Origin: a bacterium
GTDB taxonomy: Bacteria > Hydrogenedentota > Hydrogenedentia > Hydrogenedentiales > SLHB01
Direction: 5' to 3'
DNA length: 9,439 nucleotides
Assembly (NCBI GenBank): GCA_024231375.1
Contig: JAAEQP010001547.1
Coordinates: forward strand, 1 to 9,439
The first letter of the stretch is position 1. Every line of letters begins with the position of its first letter. The translations under genes were made by a program, and so were the position numbers. This document shows, piece by piece, positions 1 through 9,439 of the stretch. The notes below the pieces were generated by a model. That model did no database searches. It was not told the origin of the DNA and was given only the letters and a program-made list of their open reading frames with translations.

Positions 1-3000
1 CCAACAACCTATACGCACGCCGCACGCGCCACTGGTATGGCGCATCAGGGCACGCCGTGGGTTGGGGGTCTGTACGCGGAGTCGTGTCCAACACCCTCTT
101 CCCCGAGCAGACGTGGTGGGACGGTTGGCTGGATCCCTTTGGGCTCCAGGCCGGCCAGTTCCAGGATTTTCACAGTGTGAGCACGGAACGCTGGTATTCC
201 GGGATCGCCGGTGTGGACGACAGTAGTTTCGATTCCGTGCATTTTCCGTATGAGACCGTACCGTTTTTCAATGCGGATTTCGACGTGCCGCCGTTGGGGC
301 CGCGCTCAAACTTCTACACGAGTATTCCCGCGCAGCCGGGACTTCCTCAGTTGAGCACGTGGCCGGGTGTTCTAGGGACCGGACAGTATCCGCGCGAATC
401 CGACTGGCCTGTCGCCTCCAAGAATACGCGGTACCTCAAGCAGCACATCGACCCGTTGAGTCTTCCCACCGCCATGCTGGGCATCAACCTGGCCGGCGCG
501 GACGACGTCGTCGTGAATCAGTTCAGTCGGCTCAGATTGCAGCAGTTCACGGTCGCCCTCTGGGGTCCGGACTTCACGCCGTCCGATCTGCTTGCGCTTG
601 ACGAGAATGGCACGTCGTCCAATTCCGGCGTTGTTCTTGTGGAAGACTCCAGCGGCGACGGTGTCTTCGGCAATGGCCTCAACCCGGTCGATCCCCTGGC
701 TGTCGACCAGACCGTCACGCTGAACGATTTGGCCTGGCAGACCGTGCCACAGTATGTCGATGTCAGCGGCGATGGTATTGCCGATGACATGAACGGCGAC
801 GGCGAGCTGACCGAGGACGACAAGGCGTGGGTGTTGAAGTTCAAGATCGCCGACACCTGGGATGTCCCGGTCATAGACGGCGCCGGAGGTAATGTCGGAA
901 GCGCCAAGTCGCTCAGAGACGATTCAAGAGATGCAGGTTCGTTCCTGGTCGCCAACGGCCAAAGATCGGGTGGCTCAGCGACGAGGCAGGCGACTTTGCT
1001 TGCCGACGGCAGCGGCTCTTTGGCTGGCGACAGTTCAGATGGCGCTTCCGACGGCCTAGTGGTCAGTAAGCGCGGCAAAGGGTACTGGCGCCAAGAGCCG
1101 CAGACGGTCGATGTGAGCAAGACGACGTCCACCAAGGCGATTGGCCCGAGTGGCAACGCGGGCCCGGACCTGTTCATAGCGGTGCGCACGTCCGACACGC
1201 TGTCTCGTTTTGAGCAGTTCCGTGCGTTCGTGCCGGCCCATGCGCCGGCGCGTCTGCCGGCCGAAGCGCCTGGCACGGAGACCCGTGCAGGACTTGAGTT
1301 CACGCCTCAGAATCCCGTGAGTTTCGGGGTCTACAAGAAGTTCCATCCCGAAGAGGGGCCGGTCCAGGAGTTCTTCGGACCCAAGTTCGCCCAAGGCAGT
1401 CTGCCGGACGAGCTGTATGAGCCCTATCTCTTTGGATTCGACCTCATCGAGGCGAACGTATACTGTGACATTCAGGATCTCGCGGGCACGGGCCAATCGG
1501 TGTTCCCGGACAGCGGCGACATGCCTGTCCTGGGCATCGACCTGTCCACGAACCGCGGCAACGACGTGGGCACGCTGGCGTCCGGAATGGCCGGCGTGGG
1601 TGGCGCGAGTGCGTTCACGGTGGTCGGCGCCGCGTGGGCCGCAGGCGCGTACACGGGCTGTTTCCTGATTGACAACCAGTACGAGTCGTACGAGATCACC
1701 GGAAACAACGCCAACACGCTGTTCCTGCGTAGCGGCACCCCGCGCAACGGCGCGTGGTTCATCGCGTGCAACCCGACGTTCTTCGAACAGTTGATTGTCG
1801 AGTTCTACGACGTGGATCAAGACGGGGCCTTCAACATGTTGGAGGACCTTCTCCCGTTCAACATCGACCAGACCGTGAGCGGGGTTGCGCTCTACCGCGA
1901 CAACGACCTGAACCCGGCCAACACCAACGGCGTATTCGATGCGGGCATCGACATTCCCGTTCCGCTGGACTATCCGCCGTTCCAGATCGGTCAGGTTGGT
2001 GAACCTGAGAACCAGGTGATGTTCGTGTTTTCCACGCCGGGTACGGACAACGTGCCGCAGGCCTTGGAGAACCAGACGCGTCACCGCCAGTGGATCCCCG
2101 ATTCCCTTGGGACCGCGCTGACCGCGGCCGAGAAGGGACCGGATTTCTTCGTGGTGATTCGCACCTCGAGCGAAGCTGACTTGGGTGACGACTTCCGGGT
2201 CGCGGTGGTATCCCTCGGCCCGAACACACCGACGGAACCGGACCCCGACACGTGGCCTCCGCCACCGCTGACACAGGCGGGTGAATTCGACCTGTTCAGC
2301 GAGTTCCCGTGGGGTTACCGCGGCGTGGGTCTGATCACCTTCTTCTCGGCCGTGAGCCAGCCCGAGGCGTACTACGCAAAGGGTGTGCCGGAAGTCGACG
2401 CGAGCGGATTCAACTGGGTGCGGTCGCAGGTCAACAAGTCCGAGCAGACCGGCACCCTCACGCTGAGCGAGAAGATACCGACGTTGGAAGACGTCATCAT
2501 CTCGTCCGTCGCGCCAACGACCTTGCCGAAGATCACGCCTGTGGGCGGGTTTTCCATCACCATCAACGGGTCCGGGTTCGGCACGACGCCCGCGGTGGTG
2601 CTTGACGGGTTCACGTTGACGGTGACTGCAGCGTCCGACACCCAGATTGCCGCGGTGATTCCGGGCGGCGTGACGTTGGATGCGAACAGCGACCTGATCG
2701 TCATCTTGTCAGTGACCAATCCGTCTACGAGCGAGTCGGGAACGTACGACAGCTTCACCATCTCGACCGCCGACCCGTCGTTGACGCCCAGCGTCTCGAC
2801 CGTTTCGCCCGATCGCGGCGGCGCGTCGGACTTCCCAGTGGCCATCCTCGGTGCGAATTTCGACGACCCGCTGGTGTTCTTCGGCGTTACGTCGGTGCCG
2901 GTCCAGTCGTGGACGCCGACACGCATCGACGTGGGGTTCCCGATAGGCGGGATTGCCGTGACCGGCGCGCTGGACGTGACGGTCAGGAATCAGAGCACCA

Positions 3001-3380
3001 GTCTGTCGGACATCCTGATCGACGGGTTCACCTACGTGAATCCGCCCAGCGGCACGCCGAAGGCCAGTTGCTTCATCGCAACCGCCGCCTACGGCACACC
3101 GCTTGCGGGCGACCTGGACACGTTCCGGGCTTTCCGCGACCGCGTTCTGCTGAAATCGGCCGCCGGCACCGCGCTGGTGGACGTGTATTACACGACGAGT
3201 CCGGCCATTGCCGACTACGCCGCGGCGCATCCCTGGTTTGCGGGCGCCTTGCGGGTCGTGTTGACGCCGGTGGCGTGGACGTTGCGCCAGCCCGTCTGGG
3301 CGCTTGCGATGCTGCTGTTGGCGTTTGGGGCGGGCCGGGTGGTCCGCCGCCGAACGCGCGCGTATCGGGCGCGGGCTTGA
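1..3380 (+). CDS. Large exported TIG-repeat protein with CFI-box C-terminal anchor (5' end outside window)
   Basis: The frame is open to the left edge (codons from base 3), so the GTG at 57 is probably internal and the true start and signal peptide lie upstream. At least 1125 residues are visible. In order they are: an unrecognised aromatic-rich region; a module at about 471-1235 with EF-hand-type calcium loops (645-680, and DMNGDGELTEDD at 786-821); a related module at about 1528-2210 with the canonical loop DVDQDGAFNMLE (1809-1844); two IPT/TIG beta-sandwich domains (about 2481-2766 and 2775-3047); and a C-terminal domain that opens with CFIATAAYG (3069-3095) and contains FRDRVLL and DVYYTTSPAIADY. 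A hydrophobic helix (about 3294-3344) and an Arg-rich tail follow. TIG domains and calcium loops are typical of surface or secreted proteins. The ending matches what I know as a CFI-box-CTERM region, thought to be a sorting or anchoring tag. I infer a large calcium-stabilised surface protein. No catalytic motif is visible and the ligand is unknown. Confidence 0.9.
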   Translation, partial: NNLYARRTRHWYGASGHAVGWGSVRGVVSNTLFPEQTWWDGWLDPFGLQAGQFQDFHSVSTERWYSGIAGVDDSSFDSVHFPYETVPFFNADFDVPPLGPRSNFYTSIPAQPGLPQLSTWPGVLGTGQYPRESDWPVASKNTRYLKQHIDPLSLPTAMLGINLAGADDVVVNQFSRLRLQQFTVALWGPDFTPSDLLALDENGTSSNSGVVLVEDSSGDGVFGNGLNPVDPLAVDQTVTLNDLAWQTVPQYVDVSGDGIADDMNGDGELTEDDKAWVLKFKIADTWDVPVIDGAGGNVGSAKSLRDDSRDAGSFLVANGQRSGGSATRQATLLADGSGSLAGDSSDGASDGLVVSKRGKGYWRQEPQTVDVSKTTSTKAIGPSGNAGPDLFIAVRTSDTLSRFEQFRAFVPAHAPARLPAEAPGTETRAGLEFTPQNPVSFGVYKKFHPEEGPVQEFFGPKFAQGSLPDELYEPYLFGFDLIEANVYCDIQDLAGTGQSVFPDSGDMPVLGIDLSTNRGNDVGTLASGMAGVGGASAFTVVGAAWAAGAYTGCFLIDNQYESYEITGNNANTLFLRSGTPRNGAWFIACNPTFFEQLIVEFYDVDQDGAFNMLEDLLPFNIDQTVSGVALYRDNDLNPANTNGVFDAGIDIPVPLDYPPFQIGQVGEPENQVMFVFSTPGTDNVPQALENQTRHRQWIPDSLGTALTAAEKGPDFFVVIRTSSEADLGDDFRVAVVSLGPNTPTEPDPDTWPPPPLTQAGEFDLFSEFPWGYRGVGLITFFSAVSQPEAYYAKGVPEVDASGFNWVRSQVNKSEQTGTLTLSEKIPTLEDVIISSVAPTTLPKITPVGGFSITINGSGFGTTPAVVLDGFTLTVTAASDTQIAAVIPGGVTLDANSDLIVILSVTNPSTSESGTYDSFTISTADPSLTPSVSTVSPDRGGASDFPVAILGANFDDPLVFFGVTSVPVQSWTPTRIDVGFPIGGIAVTGALDVTVRNQSTSLSDILIDGFTYVNPPSGTPKASCFIATAAYGTPLAGDLDTFRAFRDRVLLKSAAGTALVDVYYTTSPAIADYAAAHPWFAGALRVVLTPVAWTLRQPVWALAMLLLAFGAGRVVRRRTRAYRARA
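471..1235 (+). repeat. Internal protein module, copy 1 of a duplicated calcium-loop unit
   Basis: This part of the large surface protein begins near MLGINLAG, passes through QQFTVALWG, SGVVLVEDSSGDGVFG and paired calcium loops, and ends with GPDLFIAVRTS followed by FRAFV. The same landmarks recur in the same order at about 1528-2210 as VLGIDLST, EQLIVEFYD, SGVALYRD, GPDFFVVIRTS and FRVAV. The copies are clearly diverged, with different insertions between landmarks, so this is an old protein-level duplication and not a DNA repeat. Boundaries are approximate. Confidence 0.6.
1528..2210 (+). repeat. Internal protein module, copy 2 of the duplicated calcium-loop unit
   Basis: This is the second copy of the module described at 471-1235. 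It carries an insertion near 1640-1760 that reads like the 'W..G.Y.G..L.D....Y.I..N.A.TL' pattern I recall from many secreted repeat proteins. That insertion is followed by a textbook EF-hand loop (Asp at positions 1, 3 and 5, Gly at 6, Phe at 8, Glu at 12; 1809-1844) and the closing GPDFFVVIRTS. Alignment by eye only. Confidence 0.55.
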
Positions 3381-3444
3381 GATGACCGTTTAGGGTACTA
3401 CGCTGAATACCAGGACCCGTGACGCGGGGGCGCTGGGGAAAAAA

Positions 3445-3449
3445 GGGAG
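3445..3449 (+). promoter_or_regulatory. Ribosome binding site that sets the GTG start at 3458
   Basis: GGGAG, within AAGGGAG, lies eight bases before the GTG at 3458. Starting there gives an immediate signal peptide (basic KTTTTR, then a hydrophobic core). The in-frame GTG at 3419 would add thirteen residues (MTRGRWGKKGVQL) in front of it and has no comparable upstream site, so 3458 is preferred. Confidence 0.75.
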
Positions 3450-3457
3450 TTCAGCTC

Positions 3458-5761
3458 GTGAAGACGACGACAACGCGCGTGGTGCTGGCGATTGCTGTGT
3501 GCCTCGGGGGATGGTTCGCGTGCGCACCCGATGCTCAGGCGTTCTACCCCACCGGCTTCTTTGACTCCGCGGGAGAACTCATCTACCCGCGCTGGGACTT
3601 CAACTACATGGACGTCAACGGCGATGGGGATATCGCCGACACCATCCAGTCCGACGAGGGAGTCGAGTTCCACTTCGAGGGTGGCGCCAACGGCTTCACT
3701 GCCTCTGAGAAGACAAAAGTCATTGCTGGGCTTGAGGTGTGGGAGAATGTTTCCACAGCCTATATAGCCTTCCGTTTCGGACAAGATATCTCCGATCCGT
3801 TGGAACTGGATCAAGGCTTCGACAATATCGACTTCATTAACTGCATAGCCATTCAGGTTCCGGAAGACCCGAATCAGATTGCTATAGGCTCCTTCGTCAA
3901 CAACTTCGTCACTTGGGCCGCTGAAAACGTGACTATCACGATCGGCGGCGTGCAGGTTAACGTCCCCAAGGGACAGATCGTCGATTCAGACATGGTGTTC
4001 GATGGTGTCCGTACTCGGGCTCGCGAACAGGACCTTGGGTTCGGTTTCACGGGCTTGGCAGTTCTGGGGGGCGGCACGAACCTAGGCATCGGATACAGCC
4101 CTTGGAACAACTACGATGAAGCGGCCTCACAGGCGGCTGGGGTCAACATTGAGAAGCGTGTGGTCAATATTCGCGATGCCTCAGGCCAGTTGCAGGCGGT
4201 GGGTGTCACACCCACGATGCACGACGACTGGTCACACTACGATCTCGGCAACGGCATCCTCGCGGATTCCTTCGAAGACTTGGCTCCTGACGATATTGCA
4301 GCGATAACTTTTCTCTATCCCCGCACGGGAGGCAACTTCTTCTCTCTATCGCAGCAGGCACGAACAACCACGCGGCAGGGATTCCCGTCCGCGCAAATCG
4401 CTGGCGGTCATATCATGGCGTGGTGTGATACGGACAACAATGCGGCGTCTGCGCGCGTCCCGTTCATTGATACCCTAACCGGCCTGTATGAATCCGAGTC
4501 AACGTTCAAGGGGTATTTCGTCCTCCGCAATCTATTCACGCAACTGGAGAGCTCTGGCGGTCTGACGTTCCCCGCGACGTACACCATGTCCTGTGCGGAA
4601 TTTGAACCGGAGATTTTTGACCAGAGCCAGTACCTCTATACCGGTCCCGGTTTCGGCTTCGACACGTTGTTCCCGTCTCAGGTATTCCGTGAGGGCGGCA
4701 ACATCTTTGGACTGGAGAATGTGGACCAGGGCACGCCCCTCAAGTTTGACCTGACGCGGCGCCAGATTGTCAGCGTGAATTCTGGCAAATCGCTGGACGT
4801 GATGCTGGCGGGCGGGAAGCCCATGTTCGGCGACCAGAACGAGACGTGCCCGTTGAACGTGACCGTGGCCGGATTGAAGACCATGCACGGGCCGAACGCC
4901 TTGCGCGGGTTCCGGGATTCCGTCCTGCTGAACAATGCGGTCGGTGTGGCTGTGATGGATGCGTACTACCGCGCCTCGCCCGCCATGGCGCAGTTCCTGT
5001 TGCGGCACGGGCGCGTGCTGGCGACGGCGCGCACCTTTGCGCGATTCGTTGAATGGGTCTTCGTCCATCCGCTGGATACGTCTATCGGCATCGCCGCGTT
5101 TGCGGCGTTGGCCTGCGCCCTTCGCGTCTGGAAACGGTCGCGCGCGCAGGTGGTTGCGGGCATGGTCCTGCTGGGCGTGGTGTCTGGCTTGGCCGCGCCG
5201 GCCGGTGCCCAGTCCCTCTACAAGAGCATTGAGGACCACGTCGCGGTTTCGCACACGATTGTCACCGGAACCGTCACCGCCTTCGACAGCCATTGGAGCG
5301 CGGACGGGATGCGGATCGAGACGGATATCAGCATCAAGATCGACGATGCGGTCAAGGGCAAGGCCAACAAGGGCGGCCTGGTCCATCTAACCCTGCCGAC
5401 GGGCCGGGCAAGCGGGTTGGTGCGGTACTGTCCTCAGTTGCCTGAGTTCGCCGAAGGTGAAGAAGTGCTGCTGTTCCTGAAGGACGGGAAACGGTACAAC
5501 CTCAGCGTGACGGGCGGCGTGACGGGCAAGTACCGGATTCGCACCGACGAAGAAACCGGCGAGAAATACGTGTACCCCGGTTCGCGGGCCAACGCGCTTC
5601 GGTTCAAGAAGGCGATGGACGCGATCAAGGCCCAGAAGGCCGCCGAGACGGGCGAAGAAGCCCCCGAGCAGGTCGATGAAGCGCCCAAGACGGTCACGGT
5701 CGACGACTTCAAGGACTACTTGAAGGACATCGACCAGCAACAGATGAAGGCGCGGAAGTAG
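3458..5761 (+). CDS. Exported pseudo-matrixin fused to CFI-like domain and a second exported domain
   Basis: 767 residues from the GTG at 3458. Residues 1-28 form a signal peptide, with likely cleavage after AQA. A calcium-type loop, DVNGDGDIADTI (about 52-63), follows. Residues about 79-290 follow the matrixin plan: a helix before the zinc site (TASEKTKVIAGLEVWENVS), a zinc-site helix region, a Met-turn-like TPTMHD, and the closing LAPDDIAAITFLYP. At the expected HExxHxxGxxH the sequence is LGGGTNLGIGY (203-213; bases 4064-4096), so all three His and the Glu are missing and protease activity is unlikely. A probable beta-sandwich follows (about 307-390). Next come a diverged CFI-box domain (464-537, Cys at 464) and two hydrophobic segments (about 540-557 and 563-584) flanking WKRSR. 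The second segment ends APAGA-Q like a signal peptidase site. Residues 586-767 form another exported-looking domain (VTGTVTAFDSHW, GEEVLLFL) with a charged tail. Only 77 bases separate it from the upstream stop, with no terminator, so co-transcription is likely. Function unknown; a binding or scaffold role is my inference. Confidence 0.92.
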   Translation: MKTTTTRVVLAIAVCLGGWFACAPDAQAFYPTGFFDSAGELIYPRWDFNYMDVNGDGDIADTIQSDEGVEFHFEGGANGFTASEKTKVIAGLEVWENVSTAYIAFRFGQDISDPLELDQGFDNIDFINCIAIQVPEDPNQIAIGSFVNNFVTWAAENVTITIGGVQVNVPKGQIVDSDMVFDGVRTRAREQDLGFGFTGLAVLGGGTNLGIGYSPWNNYDEAASQAAGVNIEKRVVNIRDASGQLQAVGVTPTMHDDWSHYDLGNGILADSFEDLAPDDIAAITFLYPRTGGNFFSLSQQARTTTRQGFPSAQIAGGHIMAWCDTDNNAASARVPFIDTLTGLYESESTFKGYFVLRNLFTQLESSGGLTFPATYTMSCAEFEPEIFDQSQYLYTGPGFGFDTLFPSQVFREGGNIFGLENVDQGTPLKFDLTRRQIVSVNSGKSLDVMLAGGKPMFGDQNETCPLNVTVAGLKTMHGPNALRGFRDSVLLNNAVGVAVMDAYYRASPAMAQFLLRHGRVLATARTFARFVEWVFVHPLDTSIGIAAFAALACALRVWKRSRAQVVAGMVLLGVVSGLAAPAGAQSLYKSIEDHVAVSHTIVTGTVTAFDSHWSADGMRIETDISIKIDDAVKGKANKGGLVHLTLPTGRASGLVRYCPQLPEFAEGEEVLLFLKDGKRYNLSVTGGVTGKYRIRTDEETGEKYVYPGSRANALRFKKAMDAIKAQKAAETGEEAPEQVDEAPKTVTVDDFKDYLKDIDQQQMKARK

Positions 5762-5786
5762 CGCGTCGCTTCAGTAGACGATTCTC

Positions 5787-5828
5787 AGCCCCCGGCACAG
5801 GGTTCAGCCCTTGCCGGGGGCTTCTTCG
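5787..5828 (+). terminator. Rho-independent-type terminator after the pseudo-matrixin gene
   Basis: A perfect 11-bp GC-rich stem pairs AGCCCCCGGCA (5787-5797) with TGCCGGGGGCT (5812-5822). An inner AGGG/CCCT stem (5799-5802 with 5808-5811) closes on a five-base loop. The T-rich tract after it is weak (TCTTCGT). It lies 26 bases past the stop codon and very likely ends the transcript of the two upstream genes. Confidence 0.8.
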
Positions 5829-5882
5829 TGGGGGGCGGAAACCGGGCCATCAGATTGGATGTCTCTCTGGTTGCGTGTCCGG

Positions 5883-5956
5883 TTGTAGCGCAGGCGTCTC
5901 GCCTTCATTCTTGCGTGGAATACTGAGAAGATGCAGGCGAGACGCCTGCGCTACAA
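5883..5956. repeat. 74-bp intergenic inverted repeat (REP/MITE-like palindrome)
   Basis: Two 26-base arms (5883-5908 and 5931-5956) are inverted copies with one mismatch, separated by 22 bases. The core of each arm reads TAGCGCAGGCGTCTCGCC or its complement. The element is separate from the terminator stem about 60 bases upstream and has no T tract. The core reads RRDACATR in one frame, a string I recall from many tiny 'hypothetical proteins' in environmental genomes, which suggests a dispersed intergenic repeat. No transposase is present and only one copy lies in this window. Confidence 0.75.
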
Positions 5957-6227
5957 GAAGGTCCCGTCTCAGCAGGATAAGTACCCAAGCGCCCTCATGG
6001 GGTTCTTGTAACCATTTCTATTGTAATGGCTTGTGCCTGATCGGCTTGCCTGCGTCCTAGCTTCTGACGGTACCCCACCGCCCCAGGCCGTTTTCGCCTC
6101 GCTCCATTTCCCTCTAGACCGCGAGCACGTCAACCCTGTACGCTGTTACATCGTTATCCACATACGTTGACAGATCTTACTCGGTCCGAGCCCGTCCCTG
6201 TGGGGAGACGGGCGGGATAGGGTGTGT
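5957..6227. other. Intergenic stretch without recognisable gene
   Basis: I see no convincing coding sequence or structured RNA here. Base use is more AT-rich than in the flanking genes, with frequent stop codons. The only notable items are a short hairpin (CCCGTC at 6191-6196 with GACGGG at 6207-6212) and an isolated TTGACA at 6167-6172 that lacks a partner -10 box. It probably serves as spacer and upstream promoter region for the T2SS genes. Confidence 0.5.
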
Positions 6228-6256
6228 TTGACAGGGCTTGGCCCGGTCTGTAGCGT
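6228..6256 (+). promoter_or_regulatory. Candidate sigma-70-type promoter for the T2SS operon
   Basis: A consensus -35 box, TTGACA (6228-6233), is followed after 17 bases by TAGCGT (6251-6256). The latter matches TATAAT at the two leading bases and the last base. Transcription would begin near 6263, leaving a leader of about 36 bases before the gspC start. The -35 box is perfect but the -10 box is only fair. No operator-like repeat overlaps it. Confidence 0.45.
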
Positions 6257-6287
6257 GAATTATCGTCCGATTGCTGTGAACGTCGTG

Positions 6288-6294
6288 AAGGAGG
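6288..6294 (+). promoter_or_regulatory. Strong ribosome binding site of gspC
   Basis: AAGGAGG lies four bases before the ATG at 6299 and is nearly a full complement of the 16S rRNA 3' tail. The spacing is slightly short but workable, and it fixes the start of gspC. Confidence 0.8.
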
Positions 6295-6298
6295 ATCG

Positions 6299-7207
6299 AT
6301 GCTGAAGGGGTTGCTGATCCGCCAGGTGTTTCTTGCCGTTGACTTGGCCCTTGCCGGGTTGATGGTGTTCGTGGTGTACCTGGTGGTGATGCAAACGTTC
6401 GGGACCAAGGAAGATGTGCTCGCGGAAGGCGGCCCAGGCGCCAGCCTTGTCTTGGGGGACGATCTCGACATCGACACGCCAGGACCCCGCAACCAGTACG
6501 ATGGATTGGTGGCCAGCGGACTGTTCGGTGACGCGGCGTCTCTCATAGGGCCTTCGGTCGGGCCTGTGGAGGAGCCCCCTCCTACCGAGGCCGAGGCGCC
6601 CAAGACGCTCCGCCTCTGGGGAACGGCGACCTTTCAGGAGCGCGCCGCGGCCGTCATCGAGAACGCGGCCGCCAAGACGGTGAAGAAGATCAACACGTTT
6701 TTCGTGGGGGATCCGGTGACCGAGGTGCATACCTTGATCGAAGTGTATCCGCGGAAGGCCGTGCTGATGAATTCGCAGTTGAACCAGCGCGAGATTCTTG
6801 AGATGGCCGCGGACGACGCTCCTGTGATCCCGCAGGCCACAGCCGTTAGCCGCGCCGATGCACGCCGCAATCAGGGGGCTCGAGGGTATTCCACCGTCTC
6901 GCGCAACGAAGTGGTGACCGAAATGAGCGTCAAGGGGGACGCGCTGGTGAAGGCCGCGCAACCGCGCATGGCCACCGACGACGCCGGGAACATCATCGGT
7001 ATCACATCGGACAACCTGAACAACGTCCCCTTGGCGAAGAAGGTGGGTCTGAAGAGCGGCGACATCGTGCAGTCGGTCAACGGGATCACGATCGACAGCG
7101 AGGATCGCATCGCTGAGATCTTCCATCGGTTTCAAAATGCTACGGTCTTCCGGCTCGGGGTTCTCCGGGGCGGCAAGCAGGAAATGCTGAACATCAAATT
7201 GGAGTAA
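6299..7207 (+). CDS. gspC: Type II secretion system protein GspC (inner-membrane clamp protein with PDZ domain)
   Basis: GspC connects the inner-membrane T2SS platform with the periplasmic N-domains of the GspD secretin and helps select substrates. This 302-residue protein has the full family layout. There is a short cytoplasmic start (MLKGLLIRQ) and one transmembrane helix (about 10-31). A linker leads to the homology region (about 66-165), which contains YDGLVASGLFG, the LRLWGTAT strand and VYPRKAVLMN. After a flexible stretch comes a C-terminal PDZ domain (about 228-302) with GLKSGDIVQSVNG and VLRGGKQEMLNIKL. Length is close to the usual 270-310 residues. The gene is ten bases upstream of gspD, the standard order in T2SS operons, and no terminator separates them. 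The PDZ protein alone could be confused with other PDZ-bearing membrane proteins. The homology region and the neighbouring secretin make GspC the clear choice. Confidence 0.9.
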   Translation: MLKGLLIRQVFLAVDLALAGLMVFVVYLVVMQTFGTKEDVLAEGGPGASLVLGDDLDIDTPGPRNQYDGLVASGLFGDAASLIGPSVGPVEEPPPTEAEAPKTLRLWGTATFQERAAAVIENAAAKTVKKINTFFVGDPVTEVHTLIEVYPRKAVLMNSQLNQREILEMAADDAPVIPQATAVSRADARRNQGARGYSTVSRNEVVTEMSVKGDALVKAAQPRMATDDAGNIIGITSDNLNNVPLAKKVGLKSGDIVQSVNGITIDSEDRIAEIFHRFQNATVFRLGVLRGGKQEMLNIKLE

Positions 7208-7217
7208 CAGGATCGCC

Positions 7218-9439
7218 ATGGTACTCACACTTCAAGGTATCCGCGCAACGATGTGCGCCTGCGCCGTGCTGATCGGCGCGGTCGCGGGAGGCTGGGTCGC
7301 GGGGCCCCGCGCAGCCGCACAAGACGCCGAAGGCGTCAAGGCCTCCACCGCCGACGTGGGCGCGTCGGATCGCAAGGTGGCCACCGAGGTGCCACGACCG
7401 ACGCCTGCGGGCCCGCGCCGCAATGCGGTGAAGCCCGCACCCGCCGACCGGGTGTCGACCCCGCCGCCAAGCGCCCGGCCGGCCGCCACCAATCGAATCC
7501 CGGCGACACCGAATCTGCCGATGGTGTCCGACGAGGCGATCCAGGCCGAGGCGGGACAGCCCTTGTTCCTGGACTTCCAGGAAACGGACCTGCTTCTGGT
7601 CATCAAGGCGATTGGCGTGGCCACCGGCAAGAATTTCAACTTGGACCCGACCATCGCGACCCAGAAGGTGACCGTGGTTTCCAACGAACCGGTTCCGCCG
7701 GAACTGGCCTATGAGGTACTCGAAGCGATTGTGGCGTCCAAGGGCGCGCAGCTCATTCCCAATGTGGACGGACACATCGTCGACGTGGTCCCCGTTGGCA
7801 AGGGCTTCGAGAAAGCCGACACCGTTACGGACATCGAAACCCCGCCAGTCGGCTACGACCGTCTGCACACGTACATCGTCGGCGTGAAGCATGCCGACGC
7901 CACGGAGTTGTCGACCATTCTCAAGACCCTGGGATCGGAGAACTCCCGGGCGGACGCGTACGGCGTGACCAACACCCTGATCCTGACCGATACGGCCTCC
8001 GGCATCAACAACATGCTGGAGTTCCTGCGCGAAGTGGACGTGCCGGGCTTCGACGAGGTGATGGAGATCTTCCCTCTGAAATACGCGCGTGCCGAAGTCC
8101 TCGCCACGCAGGTGCAGGACGTCCTGCTTGGGCCTGAAGGGGAGGGGTCTGCCGTGCCAACGGCGCAATCCGTCCGGCAGGCCGTGGTTCGTCCGGGCCG
8201 CGCCGCCCCCCCCTCGATGAAGAACCAGACCATTGTGGGCCAGCGTCACGAGAGCCTGCGTCTCGTGGCGGATGAGCGGTTGAACGCCGTCATCGTCGTG
8301 GCGACCGAAGGCATCATGGAGCGGGTCCGTGATTTGATCGACCGGCTCGACACCCATACGCCGGTTGAGTCTCAGAACATTCACGTGTACCACCTGCTCA
8401 ACGCCGACGCCGAGAAGGTCGAGGAGGCCCTGTCGGGATTCTTCGAATCGACGACGCCGCGCCAAGGCGGCAGCGGGCAGGGCGGGGGCGCTCAAGCCGG
8501 ACCAAGCGGCGAGGTGCAGCCGTTCGAGAAAGAGGTTTCGATCACGCGGTACGATCAGACGAACGCGCTGCTCATTCTCGCCGCACCGCAGGATTACAAG
8601 GTCATTGAGACCATCATTGCGAAGCTCGACGTGCCGCCGCGCCAGGTTCATGTTGAGGCACTGATCGTGCAGGTCTCGATCAACGACACCTTTGAACTGT
8701 CCGTGGAAACGGCGGGTTTGACCGCCAACGACGCCTTTACCCTGAACAATGTGGTTCAGTTGGCCAACGTGCTCAATGGGAACATCATCGGCGCGGACGG
8801 CCCCGCCGCGAGCTCGGTGCTTGCGTTCGGGTTGCTTGACGGTACCACGCAGATTACCACGCCTGACGGGGCCGGCGGCCTCGTCGTGCAGCAAGTCCCG
8901 AACGTGCCGCTGTTGTTGACGGCTCTTGAGAATTTGACGGCTCTGGATGTCCTTTCCCGGCCGAGTCTTTCGACCGTGGACAACGAAGAGGCGAAGATCC
9001 TGATCGGCCAGGATGTTCCGATCATTAGCGGCAGTTCGCGAGCGCAAGACCAGTCGGCCATCGGCGCCAGTGTGTACAACCGGGTCGACCGTGAAGACAT
9101 CGGCATCAAGATGACCGTGACGCCGCAGATCAACGAAGGCGACTTCGTGTTTCTGGACTTGGCGGTGGAAGTGTCGGCCCTGGCCCCGGCGAGCAGCACG
9201 GTGGGTGACCCCAACCTGCTGGGCCCGACGCTCAACAAGACGGAAATCGAGGACAAAGTGGTTATCCGCGACGGAGCGACCGGCATCATCGGCGGTCTCA
9301 TCAGCGAGAACATGAGCCGCACCCGGACCCACACACCCTTTCTGGGCGACCTGCCCCTCATAGGTTGGCTGTTCGGCAGCCGGAACGAGACGCGCCGGAA
9401 AGAGGACCGGGTGGTGTTCGTAACGCCGCACATCGTCAA
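7218..9439 (+). CDS. gspD: Type II secretion system secretin GspD (3' end outside window)
   Basis: GspD forms the outer-membrane ring through which folded T2SS substrates leave. From the ATG at 7218, 740 codons are visible and the stop lies beyond the edge. Residues 1 to about 34 are a signal peptide (cleavage near RAAA-QD). Then comes a Pro/Ala-rich linker (about 36-110) that is unusual before N0. The domains follow in order: N0 (about 112-195, PLFLDFQETDLLLVIKAIG), N1 (213-277), N2 (282-378), N3 (387-475, with a Gly-rich loop at about 416-430) and the secretin barrel (476-740). The barrel shows LTALDVLSRPSLSTVDNEEA, GQDVP (597-601) and the C-terminal secretin signature (692-719: GG, then PFLGDLPLIGWLFG). 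The four N-domains and gspC next door favour T2SS over a type IV pilus (PilQ) or type III secretin. The start is supported by GGAG/AGGA just upstream and by the basic n-region lost if the ATG at 7251 were used. Whether a C-terminal pilotin-binding S-domain exists cannot be seen. Confidence 0.96.
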   Translation, partial: MVLTLQGIRATMCACAVLIGAVAGGWVAGPRAAAQDAEGVKASTADVGASDRKVATEVPRPTPAGPRRNAVKPAPADRVSTPPPSARPAATNRIPATPNLPMVSDEAIQAEAGQPLFLDFQETDLLLVIKAIGVATGKNFNLDPTIATQKVTVVSNEPVPPELAYEVLEAIVASKGAQLIPNVDGHIVDVVPVGKGFEKADTVTDIETPPVGYDRLHTYIVGVKHADATELSTILKTLGSENSRADAYGVTNTLILTDTASGINNMLEFLREVDVPGFDEVMEIFPLKYARAEVLATQVQDVLLGPEGEGSAVPTAQSVRQAVVRPGRAAPPSMKNQTIVGQRHESLRLVADERLNAVIVVATEGIMERVRDLIDRLDTHTPVESQNIHVYHLLNADAEKVEEALSGFFESTTPRQGGSGQGGGAQAGPSGEVQPFEKEVSITRYDQTNALLILAAPQDYKVIETIIAKLDVPPRQVHVEALIVQVSINDTFELSVETAGLTANDAFTLNNVVQLANVLNGNIIGADGPAASSVLAFGLLDGTTQITTPDGAGGLVVQQVPNVPLLLTALENLTALDVLSRPSLSTVDNEEAKILIGQDVPIISGSSRAQDQSAIGASVYNRVDREDIGIKMTVTPQINEGDFVFLDLAVEVSALAPASSTVGDPNLLGPTLNKTEIEDKVVIRDGATGIIGGLISENMSRTRTHTPFLGDLPLIGWLFGSRNETRRKEDRVVFVTPHIV

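Follow-up and report, generated by a model that had tools for sequence, protein, structure and literature searches.

A bacterial matrixin-fold domain without its zinc site, on one chain with an NTR/TIMP-fold domain, and recurrent loss of that site in Hydrogenedentota

The locus and the encoded chain

The window (the whole 9,439-nucleotide stretch analysed, contig JAAEQP010001547.1) carries four genes on one strand: the end of a giant protein, the open reading frame (ORF) under study, a gspC-like gene and the secretin gene gspD (Table 1). The first-pass annotation described the second of these as open for 767 codons, which is confirmed from the GTG at 3458, and its product can be aligned along its whole length with 61 homologues. 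A random open frame is ruled out by these long homologues.

Table 1. Features of the window, with positions counted from its first letter
Feature	Residues	Positions	Strand	Basis or remark
C-terminal 1125 aa of giant upstream protein (TIG domains, CFI-box-CTERM)		3..3380	+	NF041770, 85.6 bits
Alternative GTG start of ORF		3419	+	780 codons
Whole ORF		3458..5761	+	767 codons plus stop at 5759-5761; GTG start
N-terminal signal peptide, PDAQA before FYP	1-28	3458..3541	+	sequence; model helix 4-21
Matrixin-fold domain without zinc site	29-290	3542..4327	+	
MDVNGDGDI, probable calcium loop	51-59	3608..3634	+	family consensus DTNGDGDV
Former active-site helix	197-208	4046..4081	+	DSSP on model
LGGGTNLGIGY, replaced HExxHxxGxxH	203-213	4064..4096	+	alignment and profile comparison
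TPTMH, retained Met-turn	251-255	4208..4222	+	
DDIAAITFLYP, retained helix after Met-turn	278-288	4289..4321	+	
Beta-sandwich domain	291-455	4328..4822	+	DSSP strands
CFI-box-CTERM-like helical domain, invariant Cys464	456-535	4823..5062	+	
Transmembrane helix, then Arg/Lys-rich stretch	538-556	5069..5125	+	hydropathy
Internal signal peptide (predicted), LAAPAGAQ	562-585	5141..5212	+	A-x-A pattern
NTR/TIMP-fold domain (barrel about 594-710) and two C-terminal helices	586-767	5213..5758	+	
gspC-like gene		6299..7207	+	below curated cut-offs
gspD secretin, runs off window		7218..9437	+	TIGR02517, 421 bits (cut-off 351)

At the end of the N-terminal signal peptide, A-x-A-F-[FY]-P is conserved in the family. 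The matrixin-fold domain contains a loop that, judging from its sequence, probably binds calcium; EF-hand models give weak matches in 2 of 62 rows. The beta-sandwich is modelled with a pLDDT mostly about 90, dipping at residues 381 to 400. In the helical domain that follows, NF041770 matches residues 480 to 526 with 39.3 bits, just under its cut-off of 40, and Cys464, invariant in A2 and A3, is read by eye as the cysteine of the CFI box. This CFI-box-like part is not C-terminal, as the transmembrane helix, the internal signal peptide and the NTR domain come after it. At least two hydrophobic stretches occur in 52 of 54 rows, and in 49 of 54 there is an A-x-A motif at most four residues from the domain that follows. 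Signal peptidase probably cleaves the internal signal peptide between AGA and Q. Third-position GC content (GC3) is 0.69 to 0.72 in the matrixin and sandwich part (3458-4822), lower than in 4823-5758 (0.84 to 0.85) and in the neighboring genes (0.80 to 0.81).

The surroundings were compared over 34 loci. Each of the 29 loci with room upstream carries the giant CFI-box/TIG protein there, directly adjacent; on the downstream side, gspC occurs in 22 of the 33 loci that have room for it and gspD in 19 of 27. Same-strand gspC is found downstream in none of the nine loci of the second zinc-less clade (L008, L017, L019, L020, L022, L024, L025, L028, and L031), and the link to secretion is therefore not universal; the two other loci without downstream gspC are L016, which is intact, and L029, in which the zinc region is missing. 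At L022, type II-like genes adjoin on the opposite strand. At two loci a single frame encodes both the giant protein and the zinc-less matrixin (L024, 4175-12469, 2764 aa; L025, 4397-12442, 2681 aa). The 537-base gap before gspC in the window holds a perfect 19-base inverted repeat, GGCGAGACGCCTGCGCTAC, at 5885-5903 and 5936-5954, which has two matches in the window (0.00 expected) and no exact match in 81 loci, and which is perhaps a REP-like element. A scan of 3300-6400 for promoters and terminators found no more than in shuffled sequence.

The replaced zinc site and its recurrence

The first-pass annotation proposed a matrixin-like fold in which the whole zinc site is replaced, and the alignment bears this out. 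Among the window protein and 69 homologues (MAFFT, 70 rows; P0070 lacks the region), LGGGTNLGIGY falls without gaps on the HE[IVL]GHxxG[LMI]xH of intact members, with L203, G204, T207 and Y213 standing, as claimed, for His, Glu, His and His; the flanking TPTMH and DDIAAITFLYP are present and align with the family Met-turn and the helix after it. Zinc-less and intact members (25 and 32 rows) are colinear over 767 columns in profile-profile comparison (probability 100, E 7e-216), and a mis-registered zinc helix is ruled out by this result together with the gap-free alignment. The structural model places the window domain in the metzincin fold and agrees with the profiles on the register. No true HExxH occurs elsewhere in the ORF or in the frames of the window's four genes. 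The extent given for the domain, 3665 to 4360, did not hold: the domain is real, but 3665 lies inside it, and its span is from the N-terminus of the mature protein (about 3542) to near 4327.

Public models recognize the domain unevenly. At E 0.01 the matrixin-peptidase model PF00413 (MEROPS M10A) picks up 28 of 62 rows; it has no match to the window protein at E 1, in which Pfam finds only a sub-threshold DUF4131. Searches of PDB sequences gave no match to the window domain and one chance row for the zinc-less profile; the profile of intact rows finds MMPs, chiefly through the zinc helix. With Pfam below threshold and the PDB sequences silent, the claim of a pseudoprotease needs homologues and structure. 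As every ligand of the catalytic zinc is gone, metzincin-type peptide cleavage is not expected, and sequence and structural model together support the prediction that the matrixin domain is catalytically dead.

A search with residues 29 to 310 retrieved 70 proteins, the window's own among them, and all eight of these with a named organism belong to Candidatus Hydrogenedentes/Hydrogenedentota; 34 loci were added from public genomes. The first tree, built with the zinc columns excluded and without nine rows (the window duplicate, L001, L006, L009, L029, P0046, and P0069-P0071), has 96 rows, of which 50 are intact and 46 have lost the site; it needs 10 changes, 7 of them forced by starred branches. 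The second tree (114 rows thinned to 102, with near-copies of included rows and L077 omitted) needs 8 changes, 6 of them forced. There the window's group comprises 30 rows, all zinc-less (support, 89), with a starred inner group of 17 rows (99), and a second zinc-less group comprises 13 rows (starred; support, 100). Single zinc-less rows stand among intact ones (P0045, P0059, P0031, L023, L007, P0026, and P0049), some of them on long or poorly placed branches. The alternative of a single loss event, with one lost clade, is rejected by the AU test (p 1.65e-7), a value that leans on a chosen set because the 45 of 102 rows used, under the simpler LG+G4 model, were picked after the tree was seen. 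The motif of intact members is that of matrixins in general, so change has probably run from presence to loss. Loss of the zinc site in the window is not a matter of chance and is recurrent in the lineage.

A survey of the phylum found the family in 56 of 68 genomes. Of the 50 genomes in which the zinc region is readable, 24 retain an intact site and 26 have lost it, the remaining 6 of the 56 being excluded from this count. The zinc region of L034 reads VNYA and was scored as zinc-less. Exactly one full-length copy is present in 21 of 22 genomes, that of G022 being reported as two pieces of one frame, and among the 22 the matrixin part has just one further match, in G009, an intact genome. A PF00413 profile search, which is blind to zinc-less copies, gave matches in 6 of these genomes; they are the fused copy in five of the six intact genomes and further genes in G009 and G021, and the zinc-less genome G017 has one weak match below the cut-off.

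An artefact of wrong alignment, mis-assembly or sequencing error is extremely improbable as an explanation of these losses and can be dismissed for the window as well as for both large zinc-less groups. The records with visible titles or names are metagenome-assembled, and P0031 (HEGH) differs by one residue, which could be an error. Nevertheless, of the 46 zinc-less rows, 34 differ at all four positions, 11 at three and 1 at a single one, and these rows come from many independent assemblies, in a register on which profile and structure concur.

Outside the ligand positions, the scaffold varies little. The second tree has 50 zinc-less rows; G206, D178, W95 and Y287 are kept in all of them and Met254 in 49 (52 of 52 intact rows; 101 of 102 overall), and most of the non-ligand landmarks tallied are kept in 44 to 50 rows; the exceptions are the Met-turn residue Pro252 (kept in 37 and replaced by Ser in 13, a Ser seen in no intact row) and the variable residue 205. 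On the question, raised in the first-pass annotation, of whether LGGGTN is conserved, the former-ligand columns vary among homologues, with a pairwise identity of 0.15 to 0.26 in the window's clade and of 0.10 to 0.24 in the second. They are rather variable columns, not the most variable (ranks 19 to 90 of 259 in the window's clade and 5 to 44 of 254 in the second).

These patterns bear on whether the zinc-less domain could still be a metallo-enzyme, with other ligands or another catalytic mechanism, which we regard as very unlikely. In 29 of 46 zinc-less rows, from both large groups, an aromatic residue (Tyr, Phe or Trp) has taken the place of the third His (4094-4096 in the window), and this non-random choice, like the kept Met-turn, speaks for such an enzyme. 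However, the identities of the former-ligand columns leave no conserved replacement ligand set, just 2 of the 46 rows retain the catalytic Glu (the first His is kept in 11), and conservation new to the window's clade is confined to eight positions scattered along the domain (Y, T, F, G, E, I, S, and T). Being so few, the newly conserved residues also suggest no obvious new binding patch.

The zinc-less relatives are under purifying selection in the matrixin domain. By an in-house Nei-Gojobori-type script, with several dS values near saturation, matrixin-domain dN/dS is 0.026 to 0.276 in zinc-less pairs (8 of 11 measurable, from four genome sets) and 0.024 to 0.154 in intact pairs (7 of 9 measurable). 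The dN/dS comparison suggested in the first-pass annotation thus has an answer for the relatives, with all zinc-less values well below 1; the pairs exclude the window gene, whose nearest relative with DNA is 56% identical. In five of the eight zinc-less pairs the matrixin value is close to or below that of the sandwich, and in the three pairs formed by L054, L056 and L057 it is two to three times as high (0.17 to 0.28, versus 0.07 to 0.10 in the sandwich). Identity in matrixin versus sandwich is 0.485 versus 0.560 in the window's clade and 0.435 versus 0.449 in intact rows. The faster evolution in three pairs and the lower relative identity in the window's clade make some relaxation possible.

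Relaxation would suit a passive relic, that is, a slowly drifting folded spacer left behind when catalysis (e.g., in maturation of the chain or of the giant neighbor) was no longer needed. Such a relic could also account for the recurrent loss in several lineages of both trees and for the variation of the four ligand positions once lost (pairwise identity, 0.10 to 0.26), and some ADAM pseudopeptidases are described as discarding the dead domain as unnecessary (PMC11266112). We nevertheless consider it unlikely, given dN/dS values that stay far under 1 in all eight measurable zinc-less pairs and near or under that of the sandwich in five of them, the retention of most landmarks and the full-length state of the family in zinc-less genomes. 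The purifying selection in relatives instead supports the earlier view of a repurposed binding module and not random decay, the binding itself being what we infer.

The NTR/TIMP-fold domain as a candidate partner

Residues 586 to 767 form an NTR-type OB barrel with C-terminal helices and thus have the NTR/TIMP fold. TIMP inhibitors carry an N-terminal Cys-x-Cys and disulfides; the region contains a single Cys, so these features are absent, and no TIMP model (PF00965) matches in 47 rows. DUF4131 matches 26 of 62 rows at E 0.01 (window 5213-5587), perhaps by way of the transmembrane helix and the OB-like barrel, and the DUF2029 in the source name of P0003 may come from the transmembrane region too.

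The phylum genomes yielded 58 NTR matches in 56 of 68 genomes. Two of these come from separate genes (G009 and G010; 219 and 290 codons), and each overlaps by ATGA the gene of an HExxH protease, one of 1508 aa with HEIGHFIGLSHS and the other of 1245 aa with HELGHSWGL. Six further matches in short frames reach the contig end (G026, G045, G052, G053, G059, and G065) and were therefore counted as cut fused copies, not as standalone genes. A standalone NTR protein used as query retrieved four homologues, none of them informatively named. L080 (3538-5487) encodes a further metzincin-like protease from this phylum, which is secreted, 649 aa long and carries HEHGHGLGFAHS; no NTR match was found on its contig. 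The zinc-less copy at L066 (genome G024) has one TAG and one TAA in its NTR end and is possibly a decaying copy.

The occurrence of the NTR domain with the matrixin in one gene, and with HExxH proteases in overlapping genes, of which two pairs are a small number, suggests that NTR domain and matrixin are partners that may touch. An NTR domain that acted only as an inhibitor should decay after death of the protease, yet it is conserved, with identities of 0.48 and 0.47 in the zinc-less clades, which are also narrower, compared to 0.37 in intact rows; our thought is that both halves may share a non-catalytic role.

TIMPs bind largely through the zinc. This weighs on the proposal that the zinc-less domain is a decoy, sequestering the NTR/TIMP-fold inhibitor in cis, to be displaced by an active protease or in response to a signal. 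The coexistence of the NTR domain with a live or former protease, in fused genes and in the two overlapping pairs, speaks for such a decoy, and there is a bacterial precedent in a metzincin with a TIMP-like lipoprotein (PMC8235301). The zinc is absent here, however, and 16 zinc-less genomes of the 22 have no second match to the matrixin part that could be the active protease, apart from the weak sub-cut-off PF00413 match in G017. A decoy is therefore quite improbable.

Interpretation and comparison with known systems

We consider it likely that the ORF encodes an exported, membrane-tethered precursor in which a matrixin-derived pseudopeptidase serves as a binding scaffold with a TIMP-like partner in cis. 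The chain would run from the signal peptide through the zinc-less matrixin, the beta-sandwich, the CFI box with its invariant Cys, the transmembrane helix, the Arg-rich loop and the internal signal peptide to the NTR/TIMP-fold domain. The pseudo-matrixin would act as a non-catalytic docking module through its folded surface. The NTR/TIMP-fold domain would be its partner; encoded on the same gene, it would be made in equal amount, and signal peptidase probably frees it at the predicted AGA-Q bond. The CFI-box part may sort the assembly to the envelope or the surface, together with the giant CFI-box neighbor, which the assembly may contact, by means of the type II secretion genes. A scaffold role is suggested by the selection-backed retention of the domain in relatives and by analogy with ADAM pseudopeptidases.

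A broader proposal is held only tentatively and is, on balance, doubtful: the job of this polyprotein may be to form a non-catalytic complex of its two halves, delivered to the surface with the giant adhesin-like protein, so that the protease activity was dispensable and was lost many times across the phylum, with selection continuing to act on the matrixin scaffold and on the TIMP-fold domain.

Karilysin, the MMP of Tannerella forsythia, is a zinc peptidase and has the inhibitor potempin A. Most known dead proteases are paralogues that coexist with live copies, and the dead ADAM copies are of this kind, whereas the syntenic gene described here is live or dead depending on the species. Metzincin pseudopeptidases are already known (PMC11266112), as are substituted HExxH sites in bacteria (PMC3650047). 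Among the matches listed in a search of open-licence literature, none was a bacterial matrixin pseudopeptidase of such kind, a bacterial matrixin with an NTR/TIMP fold in cis, or a phylum-wide recurrent loss of the zinc site in one syntenic gene.

The comparisons that follow draw on excerpts of the cited papers. Like ADAM11, ADAM22 and ADAM23 (MEROPS M12), the window protein has a metzincin fold with a substituted HExxHxxGxxH, a kept Met-turn and a membrane-tethered multidomain layout, and some ADAM pseudopeptidases assemble complexes via surface loops (PMC11266112). The ADAM pseudopeptidases are, however, animal proteins of M12, while the present domain is a bacterial matrixin with an NTR domain. 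Members without HExxH are likewise numerous, also in bacteria, among the CLCA metalloproteases and other zincins, and substitutions here resemble the trends published for substituted zincins, namely, Glu to Ala, Leu or Gln and the second His to Leu (PMC3650047). CLCA is nevertheless a different family; CLCA_N histidines are often replaced by Arg or Lys, which is rare here, and the excerpts of that paper mention no TIMP-like domain in CLCA (PMC3650047).

The nearest parallel in genetic coupling is Listeria Mtz-Tim, in which a bacterial metzincin is linked to a TIMP-like protein; there the metzincin is live, it cleaves and releases the TIMP-like lipoprotein Tim, and two genes are involved (PMC8235301). 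In the present case there is one chain with a metzincin predicted to be dead, and release would proceed via the internal signal peptide. The anchor recalls MYXO-CTERM, with its conserved Cys, transmembrane helix and Arg-rich stretch, found on surface proteins that are linked to type II secretion and whose sorting is carried out by myxosortase together with the type II system (PMC11980579). Compared to MYXO-CTERM, the anchor here is CFI-box-like, longer and internal, with the NTR domain after it.

For this family, a single syntenic gene, present once in each of the 22 genomes examined for copy number, has an intact protease site in about half of the sampled species and a dead one in the rest, and its several independent losses constitute a natural series on the metzincin fold without zinc. 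A TIMP fold and a matrixin on one bacterial chain bear on the origin of protease-inhibitor pairs of the kind found in the animal matrix and on whether protease-inhibitor contact can outlive catalysis. If the proposed mechanism is true, the internal signal peptide frees the TIMP-like half, a step for which Listeria needs the protease, and this would explain why catalysis was dispensable.
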